In this document: one piece after another, positions 25,480 to 30,723 of the stretch | How positions within the stretch are numbered: position 1 is the first letter of the stretch | Layout of the letters: every line of letters begins with the position of its first letter | DNA from: an uncultured Rhodobiaceae bacterium | GTDB taxonomy: Bacteria > Pseudomonadota > Alphaproteobacteria > RS24 | DNA: 64,000 nucleotides | Direction: 5' to 3' | Assembly: GCA_937876775.1 (NCBI GenBank) | Contig: CALEFA010000061.1 | Location: forward strand, 1-64,000 | The notes under the pieces: model-generated | Database searches by the model: none | Told to the model about the DNA's origin: nothing | What the model saw: the letters and a program-made list of their open reading frames with translations, nothing else | Program-made: the position numbers and the translations under genes

Positions 25480-26370
25480 ATGGGCTATCACTACAAGCCG
25501 AAATCCGTCGAGTCCATTGTCATCCGTGATTTTTCGTTCGCGTTCCCCGACACGCTGAATCCGAAATGGATCCCGGGCAAAACTGTGCGCAGTCATTTTT
25601 TCAATGGCATGTCTTTGACCATGCCCTATTTGGAGCCGTTTCTGGTCAAGACCGGCAAAGAAGCGGCGCGGCATATTGAATGCGAAGAATTGCGCGAAGA
25701 CATTCGTGGTTTTTGCGGGCAGGAAAGTCAGCATTATAAATGTCACCGGCGGCTCAATGAACTCATTAAAGCAAATGGCTATCCAGAGCTGGCGGCGGTT
25801 GAGGAACGGTTTGATAAAAGCTGGAAACAGCTCATGAACCGCGACCTTGAACAGCGGCTTGCCTATTCTGCCGGTTTTGAGAGCATGACCAATGGCTTCA
25901 CCCGTTGGATGCTGAAAAAACGTCTCACCCTGTTCAAGAATGCCGATCCGCATATCACCTCGTTTTGGCTGATGCATATGATCGAAGAGACCGAGCATAA
26001 AACGGTCGCCATTGACGCCTATCGCGCCTATTCGGGCCGCTATTGGCCACGCTTCAAAGGCGTTTTCCATGGCTCATTCCATGTGGTCGGGCTGGGTTTG
26101 GTGGCGATGATGGCGGCCTTGCGCAAAGACGGCAAGCTGAAACAGCCGCGCACATGGTTCGAGATTATCCGTGAATTATCCGGCATGGTTTATAATGTCG
26201 GGCCATTCATGCTGCGGGCGCTTTTGCCGGGACATGACCCGCGCGGGGAGACCGATCCGGCGTATATGAAAGAATGGTTGCGCGGCTATGCCCAACTGCC
26301 AGCCGAAGCGCCGATTCCGCTAATCGACACGCGCCATCCGGCGATGCCAGTACCATTTGAAAAAATTTAG
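25480..26370 (+). CDS. Predicted metal-dependent hydrolase, PF10118 family
   Basis: The 296-residue protein matches the Metal_hydrol (PF10118) family, helical ferritin-like proteins with candidate diiron ligands. Visible ligand-type motifs are G-Q-E-S-Q-H near 79-84 and I-E-E-T-E-H-K near 168-174. Family functions are poorly known. A GAGAGGAAA site precedes the ATG. Only 15 bp separate it from the downstream styrene-oxide-isomerase-like gene, so they are almost certainly one operon. A promoter should lie in the 137 bp between it and the divergent ABC-F gene. Confidence 0.82.
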   Translation: MGYHYKPKSVESIVIRDFSFAFPDTLNPKWIPGKTVRSHFFNGMSLTMPYLEPFLVKTGKEAARHIECEELREDIRGFCGQESQHYKCHRRLNELIKANGYPELAAVEERFDKSWKQLMNRDLEQRLAYSAGFESMTNGFTRWMLKKRLTLFKNADPHITSFWLMHMIEETEHKTVAIDAYRAYSGRYWPRFKGVFHGSFHVVGLGLVAMMAALRKDGKLKQPRTWFEIIRELSGMVYNVGPFMLRALLPGHDPRGETDPAYMKEWLRGYAQLPAEAPIPLIDTRHPAMPVPFEKI

Positions 26371-26385
26371 TCTTTCCGGGAGGGG

Positions 26386-26868
26386 ATGATGGAACGATAT
26401 CAAAAACTGATGATTGCCAATGGTTTCATGGTGATGTTTGTCGCCATGCTGGCCGGTTTTATGCTGATTTTCAATCTGGTCGGCGGGGTGGAAGTTTGGC
26501 CCGGAAAAATTATTGAATTTTCAGTCTATGGCACCACTGACGGCTGGGTGCGAGCCCATAGCGGCGGCATTACCAATGGCATGTTGGTGGTCATTGTCGC
26601 GCTGGCTTTGCCAAAATTGGCGCTGAGCCAGTCCATGAACCGATTTTTCGCTTGGGGGCTGATCTATGTGGCGTGGTCGTTCACGCTTTTCTATTGGATT
26701 GGCAATGCTGCCGGCAATCGGTCGCTGACCTTTGGTGATAGCCAGTTGGGCCAGAGTGACTGGTTAAGCATTATCGGCTTTTTGCCGGGCGTGCCGAGCA
26801 TTTTCCTGGCACCGATTATCCTTTATGTCGGCGCCCGCGCGCTGATACGGCAGGTCGATAAAGACTAA
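26386..26868 (+). CDS. Styrene-oxide-isomerase-like membrane protein
   Basis: The 160-residue protein has four hydrophobic segments (about 10-33, 63-80, 88-106, 125-150), as in the heme-binding styrene oxide isomerase StyC. Shared features with StyC as I remember it are N-L-V-G-G near 30-34, P-G-x-I-I-E-F near 39-45, G-W-x-R-A-H-S-G near 53-60 with H58, N64 in T-N-G-M, Y103 and N-R-x-L-T-F near 111-116. H58, N64 and Y103 fall at the StyC positions known for heme ligation and catalysis, while the StyC Asn99 position is Phe here. StyC turns epoxides to aldehydes by Meinwald rearrangement. No styrene monooxygenase or aldehyde dehydrogenase gene is near, so the substrate is open. GGGAGGGG precedes the ATG. 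Assigned by remembered similarity, not by search. Confidence 0.75.
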   Translation: MMERYQKLMIANGFMVMFVAMLAGFMLIFNLVGGVEVWPGKIIEFSVYGTTDGWVRAHSGGITNGMLVVIVALALPKLALSQSMNRFFAWGLIYVAWSFTLFYWIGNAAGNRSLTFGDSQLGQSDWLSIIGFLPGVPSIFLAPIILYVGARALIRQVDKD

Positions 26869-28195: not shown

Positions 28196-29602
28196 ATGAG
28201 CAAGGGTCTAAAAACTGACTATTTAATTATTGGCAGCGGCGTTGTCGGCATGGCTTTTGCCGATAGTTTGCTGACCGAAACAGACGCCGATATTATTATC
28301 GTCGACCGCTATGCAATGCCCGGCGGTCATTGGAATGTGGCCTATCCGTTTGTCACCCTGCACCAACCGTCATCGTTTTTTGGCGTCAGCTCAACTGAAT
28401 TGAGCCGTGGCACCATCGACCAGATCGGCCTCAATAAAGGGCTCGGCGATTTGGCCAGCGGGGCAGAAGTATCGGCCTATTTTGATGAGGTGATGCGGCA
28501 ACGGTTTTTGGCCAGCGGACGGGTGCGGTATTTTCCCATGTGCGATTACACGGGCAATGGGCAATTCAATCATAAATTGAGCGGTGAAGAATTTACTGTC
28601 GATTATACGCATTTAGTCGACGCCACATTTATGACGATTTCTGTGCCCTCAACCCATACACCGAATTTTGATATTGCCGAGGGCGTGCGCTTCATGCCGA
28701 TCAATGATTTGCCGAAAGTCACCGCCAGCCCAGCCGGTTATGCGGTGATTGGCGGCGGTAAAACCGCCATTGATGCGTGCCTGTGGCTGTTGCAGCAGGG
28801 GGTCGATGCCGACACCATTCAATGGATTATCTCGCGCGATGCGTGGCTGCTCGACCGGGCCAATGCGCAGCCCAGCGAAGCCTTTGTTGAGACGATTATC
28901 AGCACCCAAGCCGGCCAGTTCGAAGCGATTGCTCGGGCCGAGTCGATTGACGATATGTTCGACCGACTTGAAGCCTGCGGTTATTTATTGCGCCTCGACC
29001 CGAATGTGCGCCCAACTATGTTTCATGCCGCGACCATCAGCCAAGCCGAATTGGCACAATTGCGGCGGATTAAGAATATTGTCCGCATGGGCCATGTGAG
29101 CGCCATTGAGACAGACCGGATTGTTTTGACGCAGGGCGAAATAGCCACCAGCCCGCAGCATTTACATATTGACTGTTCGGCCAGTCTGGCGCGGTCTTTC
29201 GAGCATAAAGAGATCGTGCCGATTTTTCAGGGCAATGTGATTACGCCACAACCGATTCGGGCCTATCAACCGGCGTTTAGCGCCTCAATGATTGCCTATG
29301 TCGAAGCCAATTATGACAGCGACGAAGAAAAGAACCGGCTTTGCGCCCATGTGCCGCTGCCCAATCAGGACGTCGATTTTATTCCGATGACCTTGGCGAT
29401 GATGATGAACCAGTTTAACTGGTCGCAAGACGCCAATTTGCGTGCCTGGATTCGGGACAATCGATTGGATGGTTTTTCCAAATCAATTGCCAGTATTGAT
29501 AAAAATGATGCTGAAAAAATGGACATAATGAAGCGCATACGAGACAATGCTTTTCCTGCGGTGGAAAAATTGCAAAAATTCGCCGCATCACTGGATAAAT
29601 AA
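28196..29602 (+). CDS. FAD/NAD(P)-dependent oxidoreductase, monooxygenase-like
   Basis: The 468-residue protein has an N-terminal FAD motif (I-I-G-S-G-V-V-G-M near 11-19), the P-G-G-H-W segment near 41-46 seen in flavin monooxygenase-like proteins, and a second Rossmann motif A-V-I-G-G-G-K-T-A near 183-191 for NAD(P)H. The substrate is unknown. AGGGGG precedes the ATG. The DUF2855 gene starts 11 bp after its stop, so the two are probably cotranscribed and act on one compound. Confidence 0.8.
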   Translation: MSKGLKTDYLIIGSGVVGMAFADSLLTETDADIIIVDRYAMPGGHWNVAYPFVTLHQPSSFFGVSSTELSRGTIDQIGLNKGLGDLASGAEVSAYFDEVMRQRFLASGRVRYFPMCDYTGNGQFNHKLSGEEFTVDYTHLVDATFMTISVPSTHTPNFDIAEGVRFMPINDLPKVTASPAGYAVIGGGKTAIDACLWLLQQGVDADTIQWIISRDAWLLDRANAQPSEAFVETIISTQAGQFEAIARAESIDDMFDRLEACGYLLRLDPNVRPTMFHAATISQAELAQLRRIKNIVRMGHVSAIETDRIVLTQGEIATSPQHLHIDCSASLARSFEHKEIVPIFQGNVITPQPIRAYQPAFSASMIAYVEANYDSDEEKNRLCAHVPLPNQDVDFIPMTLAMMMNQFNWSQDANLRAWIRDNRLDGFSKSIASIDKNDAEKMDIMKRIRDNAFPAVEKLQKFAASLDK

Positions 29603-29613
29603 GGGAGCCTCAC

Positions 29614-30723
29614 GTGAGCGAATTTCAGACTTGTAAAACCGACCTAACAAAAAGCCGACTGGTGGCCACCGATCAGGCCGCCGCTTTGGCCAATCTGAAA
29701 GATGGCGATATTCTTGTGCGCATTGATCGCTTTGCCTTTACCGCCAATAATGTGACCTATGGCGCTTCTGGCGATAGCATTGGCTATTGGCATTTTTTTC
29801 CAGCGCAAGACAATGACAGTGGCGAATGGGGCTGCCTACCGGTCTGGGGATTTGCCGAAATTACCGCCTCAAAAGTCGCTGGTCTCGATATTGGCGAACG
29901 GCTCTATGGTTATTTCCCACCGGCTGATTTTTTAACCCTGACGCCGACAAAATTATCGCCGCAAAGATTTATGGATGGGGCGCCGCATCGGGCTGAGCTG
30001 CCGCCAGTTTACAATAATTATTTGCGAATGTCGGGCGAACAAAATTATGACCCGAACATGGACGATCTGCGGGCCTTGCTGAACCCACTTTATGTGACGT
30101 CTTTCTGCCTGTGCGACGCCTTGCAAGACGCCGGTTACCACCGGGCCGAGCAAGTGATTATTGTCAGCGCTTCGAGCAAGACCGCCATTGGCCTGGCCCA
30201 AGGTCTGGCCGATGATGCCGACGCGCCGTCAACCATTGGCCTAACGTCAGCCAGCAATCGTGCCTTTGTCGAAAGCCTTGGCTGCTATGATCAGGTCATC
30301 AGCTATGACGAGCTAGAGCAAGTCGATGCCAGCAAACCAAGTGTCATGGTCGATATGTCGGGCAATCGCGTGGTGCTGGGCACGGTGCACGGGGCTTTGG
30401 GCGATCATATGCTCACTTGCATTAATGTCGGCATGACCCATTGGGAAGACCGCGACACGCCAAAAGATCCGCTGGCGGCGCAAATCATCCGCGAACGCAG
30501 CGGCTTTTTCTTCGCCCCATCGCATATTCAAAAGCGCATCGGCGACTGGGGGCAAGATGGCTATAATGCGCGCACAGACGCCTTTATGACCCGCCGCGCC
30601 GAACAGAGCAAAAGCTGGATGCAGGTAACGCATATTGCTGGCTTCGACGCTTTCACACAGGTTTATAATGATGTCGTCGTCGGGAAAATGAACCCGAATG
30701 AGGGCTTGGTCATTATCCTTTAA
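29614..30723 (+). CDS. DUF2855 family protein
   Basis: The 369-residue protein matches the DUF2855 family, distantly related to medium-chain dehydrogenases: a GroES-like N-terminal half (G-F-A-E-I near 78) and a nucleotide-fold half with V-S-A-S-S-K-T-A near 187-194. I see no zinc-ligand cysteine set. The start is GTG 29614 behind AAGGGAG. It lies 11 bp after the FAD oxidoreductase and 14 bp before purT, in a tight plus-strand run. Biochemical role unknown; a reductase partner of the flavoprotein is a reasonable guess. Confidence 0.85.
   Translation: MSEFQTCKTDLTKSRLVATDQAAALANLKDGDILVRIDRFAFTANNVTYGASGDSIGYWHFFPAQDNDSGEWGCLPVWGFAEITASKVAGLDIGERLYGYFPPADFLTLTPTKLSPQRFMDGAPHRAELPPVYNNYLRMSGEQNYDPNMDDLRALLNPLYVTSFCLCDALQDAGYHRAEQVIIVSASSKTAIGLAQGLADDADAPSTIGLTSASNRAFVESLGCYDQVISYDELEQVDASKPSVMVDMSGNRVVLGTVHGALGDHMLTCINVGMTHWEDRDTPKDPLAAQIIRERSGFFFAPSHIQKRIGDWGQDGYNARTDAFMTRRAEQSKSWMQVTHIAGFDAFTQVYNDVVVGKMNPNEGLVIIL

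Follow-up and report, generated by a model that had tools for sequence, protein, structure and literature searches.

Styrene oxide isomerase (SOI, or StyC) is one of the few isomerases to employ haem as a Lewis acid and has been studied for its part in styrene breakdown; what does a gene resembling its own do outside any styrene pathway? The question is posed by positions 26386-26868 (forward strand) of the 64-kb stretch of DNA from a marine bacterium analysed here, hereafter the window, which encode a four-helix membrane protein of 160 aa, or of 159 aa if translation begins at the ATG at 26389. The unit of interest is not this gene alone, as the sequence-only reading had taken it to be, but the pair that it forms with an upstream PF10118 gene (25480-26370), which that reading had missed together with the AurF-like ligands of its product. 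This partner is the strongest clue to function and turns an odd single gene into a two-enzyme module. We suggest that the pair probably makes and then rearranges an oxygenated compound. Our best explanation, to which we assign a probability of about 0.5, is a conserved two-gene module in which oxygenation by a diiron PF10118 enzyme, probably an epoxidation, would be followed by haem-catalysed rearrangement.

The product of 26386-26868 is a genuine SOI/StyC homologue and not a chance likeness. The profile match to StyC on which the sequence-only reading had staked its case was found at E=2.5e-37 (NCBIfam NF045734), with a score of 128.2 bits that lies under the 150 bits required by the equivalog cut-off of that model. 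A search of PDB sequences returned the SOI structures 8pnu (E=4.7e-27) and 30tw (E=2e-23), while the Pfam profile search gave no match. An AlphaFold2 model built from a 46-sequence alignment (pLDDT 96.4) superposes on 8pnu with TM 0.90/0.93 and an rmsd of 1.1 Å, and 8pnu was the single Foldseek match in the PDB under E 1e-3 (E=9.8e-12). The gene is under purifying selection, with dN 0.03 and dS 0.52 against a 93%-identical homologue.

Compared with StyC of Pseudomonas sp. VLB120 (PDB 8PNU), to which it is 37-38% identical, the window protein has the same four helices and, by alignment, keeps H58, N64, Y103 and R112, the first three as had been seen from the letters alone; N64 and Y103 are the residues that position the substrate in SOI. 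H58, the haem ligand in SOI (CAT, 26557-26559), and N64 (26575-26577), which bound the segment 26557-26577, are invariant in all 46 aligned SOI-like sequences. The differences fall at 26668-26697, the stretch that also holds Y103 (TAT, 26692-26694): Phe stands at position 99 (TTC, 26680-26682) in place of the Asn expected of a StyC, as had been noted earlier, and in addition Asp95 is replaced by Val and Leu104 by Trp, both of which had been overlooked. In the VLB120 enzyme, activity is abolished by N99A and by Y103A and impaired by N64A and by D95A (PMC11374702). Five single mutants of Rhodococcus SOI were compared in a whole-cell assay, among them one at D94, which we read as the equivalent of D95, and H57A alone lost activity (PMC12502698). 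Phe99 is present in all 43 members of the clade to which the window protein belongs and appears to have arisen once; its effect is therefore inseparable from shared ancestry. Since loss of Asn99 inactivates SOI, this all-Phe99 clade may carry out altered chemistry. The proposal of a heme-dependent epoxide isomerase, or related enzyme, with a new substrate thus stands in part: the protein is SOI-like, probably haem-dependent and likely to have another natural substrate, and it is the isomerisation of an epoxide that is in doubt.

The surroundings of the gene likewise differ from those of StyC. As the sequence-only reading had stated, there is no real match to a styrene monooxygenase (StyA, StyB) or phenylacetaldehyde dehydrogenase within the 64-kb window; furthermore, genome-wide searches (1.72 Mb, rated 100% complete) found neither StyA nor PaaA, a marker of the phenylacetate pathway, the StyA search having been run without a positive control. 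The genome carries a single SOI-like gene and a single PF10118 gene, and the two are neighbours. Plasmid-borne StyC genes, examined as controls, adjoin styA and a flavin reductase gene, whereas no such styAB or phenylacetate context was found here. What the window shares with the styABC module of plasmids pSTY and pP88_d is the juxtaposition of an oxygenase gene and a haem epoxide isomerase gene; it differs in that a diiron enzyme takes the place of the flavin-dependent one as presumed oxygenase, and in having no dedicated dehydrogenase.

The first gene of the pair (25480-26370, forward strand) lies 16 bp upstream of the SOI-like gene on the same strand and encodes a 296-aa protein that matches PF10118, a family labelled "predicted metal-dependent hydrolase", with E=7.3e-56 and 190 bits against a gathering cut-off of 33.2. 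Sequence conservation suggests that it is probably a ferritin-like diiron oxygenase instead, because an AurF-type ligand set is invariant in all 77 PF10118 proteins compared (47 paired with an SOI-like gene and 30 unpaired). The putative ligand codons extend over 25633-25998 on the forward strand and comprise E52 (25633-25635), E82 (25723-25725), H85 (25732-25734), E134 (25879-25881), H166 (25975-25977), E170 (25987-25989) and H173 (25996-25998). All seven are in register with an AurF-family protein in a profile-profile alignment (hhalign E only 0.12), and form the 3His/4carboxylate set, here 3His/4Glu, in AurF spacing. The pattern E, ExxH, E, HxxxExxH is that of the AurF/CylC ferritin-like diiron enzymes, and PF10118 has the QExxH motif carried by CylC-type halogenases (PMC12101540), although sequence similarity to these enzymes is very low and PF10118 is a separate Pfam family. 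As the invariant residues make up a diiron-oxygenase ligand set, a hydrolase is disfavoured. This set is strong evidence; fold and homology are suggestive. The AlphaFold2 model is a helical bundle (pLDDT 93.5) for which the Foldseek list consists mostly of R2, R2lox, AurF, CmlI, MMO and T4MO structures, every one with E above 0.1 (best E 0.11, TM about 0.45). Pfam AurF matches six of 38 PF10118 relatives (best E 7.2e-4), the window protein not being among them, as well as several PF10118 genes from the genome survey. A search of PDB sequences gave no relative, its single match, alpha-actinin, having the look of chance. PF10118 genes occur in about 15% of sampled Pseudomonadota genomes, and H201 is near-fixed in the SOI-paired proteins (45 of 47) and not in other PF10118 proteins.

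The ligand set also raises the prospect that the pair acts on nitrogen, with PF10118 as an AurF/CmlI-like N-oxygenase and the haem protein rearranging or dehydrating a hydroxylamine, nitroso compound or oxime in the manner of hydroxylaminobenzene mutase. The 3His/4carboxylate site has been described as largely unique to N-oxygenases (PMC12101540), and an N-oxygenase ligand pattern alone does not predict epoxidation, which we count against that step of our model. However, PF10118 has Gln for Asp135 of AurF and Glu for Asp226, and other neighbours of SOI-like genes are of C-oxygenating types. A link to nitrogen does appear on one branch of the wider family, that of a very distant SOI-like protein (L018:1390-1818; L152:4920-5372) with a StyC-model match of E 3.9e-5. 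Its nearest relative on a plasmid, 37% identical, is encoded beside a nitroreductase gene on pCNB of Comamonas. This may be a hydroxylaminobenzene mutase, which would link that family to SOI, but the window protein is only very distantly related to the L018 branch and we consider action on nitrogen improbable here.

That the two genes belong together is apparent from their distribution. Among 77 loci gathered with SOI-like queries, 52 have a PF10118 gene immediately ahead of the SOI-like one and in the same orientation; they come from metagenome-assembled genomes (MAGs) of the PS1 clade and other Alphaproteobacteria and from many gammaproteobacterial MAGs, mostly aquatic. Flanking genes are shuffled among these loci, and the pair mostly stands alone. 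A mirror-tree comparison of the paired SOI-like and PF10118 proteins gave r=0.91, which none of 2000 permutations reached, related genomes not being independent. PF10118 proteins from the pairs group in a single clade (98*) that excludes 30 PF10118 genes of a phylum sample, and none of these 30 unpaired genes has an SOI neighbour within roughly 1.5 kb on each side. As the 77 loci came from an SOI query, the same draw of 349 genomes was searched independently with each family. The window aside, SOI-like genes were found only in G059, G328 and, weakly, G176, and in each of the first two one SOI-like copy adjoins a PF10118 gene, in opposite orders, against chance expectations of about 0.003 and 0.0004; the reversed order is that of G328 (locus L157). 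We regard it as practically certain that the pairing is real. In the open papers searched, one names PF10118 and none was found to connect it with SOI (subscription papers lying outside the scope of the search).

These observations weigh on the simplest view of the gene, that of an ordinary, scattered SOI that isomerises styrene oxide, or epoxides like it, supplied from elsewhere, with PF10118 as an incidental neighbour. The SOI of Zavarzinia compransoris does isomerise styrene oxide (PMC12502698), and SOI-likes from Zavarzinia fall outside the StyAB clade. Seven Phe99 members, moreover, are without an intact PF10118 gene alongside (one of them lies at the edge of its contig and another has a remnant), a point that also counts against the module. 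A pair that spans two classes, stays together while its flanks are shuffled and, in one genome, its order is reversed, and co-diverges strongly is hard to reconcile with an incidental neighbour, and a protein that scores under the StyC cut-off and lacks Asn99, in a genome where StyA and PaaA were not found, is an odd candidate for styrene oxide. We therefore hold this view to be quite unlikely.

Pairing extends to SOI-like proteins with divergent active sites. The two found beside PF10118 in the genome draw (L157 in G328, L160 in G059) keep H58, N64 and R112 and have Ala or Ser for Tyr103. At L064 (6538-8471) a PF10118 gene is followed by two tandem SOI-like genes, of which the first keeps H58 and N64 without Y103 and N99 and the second is canonical; because the haem of SOI sits between subunits, a hetero-oligomer of the two is conceivable. 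The Y103-less paired proteins argue against a uniform StyC-like site, and imply that pairing needs no such site and that the chemistry of the pair may vary. They also lend some substance to the idea that the SOI-like protein is no isomerase but a membrane haem partner that feeds electrons to the diiron oxygenase or anchors it, since H58 and N64 persist beside PF10118 where Y103 and N99 are lost, and one helix of the window PF10118 protein, at 1.62 over 19 residues, reaches the hydropathy threshold for contact with the membrane. Against this, the window clade strictly keeps N64, Y103 and R112, a constraint not expected of a mere electron carrier, the usual type of reductase gene lies beside some pairs, and the haem of SOI acts as a ferric Lewis acid (PMC11374702). 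A redox or docking role accordingly has, in our estimate, only a small chance of being correct.

SOI-like genes also keep company with a third type of oxygenase. A PF00487 desaturase/hydroxylase-type gene lies directly upstream in five loci (L078, L079, L081, L090 and L092), and most loci of this kind include a BenC/MmoC-type reductase. These loci, in Zavarzinia, Dyella and Rhodoferax records, resemble the window in placing an SOI-like gene beside an iron oxygenase of another type, often with that reductase; they differ in that their SOI-likes keep N99 and form a separate clade, and in having an integral-membrane PF00487 protein rather than PF10118. Two of them (L081 and L092) belong to the genus of the Z. 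compransoris strain mentioned above. The presence of three oxygenase types (StyAB, PF00487 and PF10118) beside one isomerase family argues that SOI-like proteins act on the product of an oxygenase.

The homology, the fold match, the conserved ligand and active-site positions, the stability of the gene pair and the co-divergence are observed, and the module that we favour builds on them as follows. PF10118, as a ferritin-fold diiron oxygenase with AurF-type ligands, would activate O2 and oxygenate a hydrophobic substrate, most likely by epoxidation of an alkene, so that an epoxide would be the shared intermediate. The SOI-like protein would be a membrane trimer binding ferric haem b through H58, as has been shown for SOI, and its haem iron, acting as a Lewis acid aided by N64 and Y103, would convert the PF10118 product by rearrangement into an aldehyde or ketone for general dehydrogenases to take up. 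F99, V95 and W104 would alter the shape of the pocket to suit a substrate that is not styrene oxide. Foldseek and the profile-profile alignment lend weak support to the diiron fold, which tells against the model. A broader version is offered more tentatively, at somewhat less than even odds: a diiron-haem system of two enzymes, widespread in Proteobacteria that are mostly aquatic, whose SOI-fold member has been adapted (F99 in one clade, Y103 lost in another) to rearrange the PF10118 product in a reaction that does not involve styrene oxide. Should the proposal hold, haem proteins of the SOI type would serve generally as the second enzyme after three or more unrelated types of oxygenase, and PF10118 would become a diiron oxygenase family with a first enzymatic function. 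The F99 and Y103-less clades provide a natural test of the roles of those residues in SOI.

The flanking genes hold no common hint of the substrate; sulfatase, amidohydrolase, PhyH, 2-oxoacid:ferredoxin oxidoreductase and SDR genes each occur in some lineages only. At five loci (L042, L049, L051, L052 and L054) the order PF10118-SOI-SDR is preceded by subunits of a 2-oxoacid:ferredoxin oxidoreductase and, at four of the five, also by an FrhB/ferredoxin-type protein; these genes are possibly the electron supply of such loci. A BenC/MmoC-type reductase precedes the pair at L046 and L053.

At the level of local signals, scans for promoters and terminators around the pair gave chance-level hits only, and no Rfam families were found nearby. 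A Shine-Dalgarno-like GGGAGGGG, identified by inspection, occupies 26377-26384 (forward strand) in the short gap between the genes and, together with the MERYQ/MDRYQ N-termini of relatives, favours the ATG at 26389 over 26386 as the probable start, in which case "H58" may truly be residue 57.

Two further observations concern neighbouring genes and database records. A flavoprotein gene (28196-29602) and a DUF2855 gene together occupy 28196-30723 of the window, 1.3 kb downstream of the pair; the flavoprotein has no StyA similarity and was ruled out as a StyA, and it is 36% identical to a flavoprotein at another locus (L002), which lies beside an SOI-like gene and a PF00487-type gene. Three records titled as Klebsiella pneumoniae MAGs (L046, L053 and L087) carry a pair that falls within the aquatic gammaproteobacterial F99 clade, and are probably mislabelled bins.
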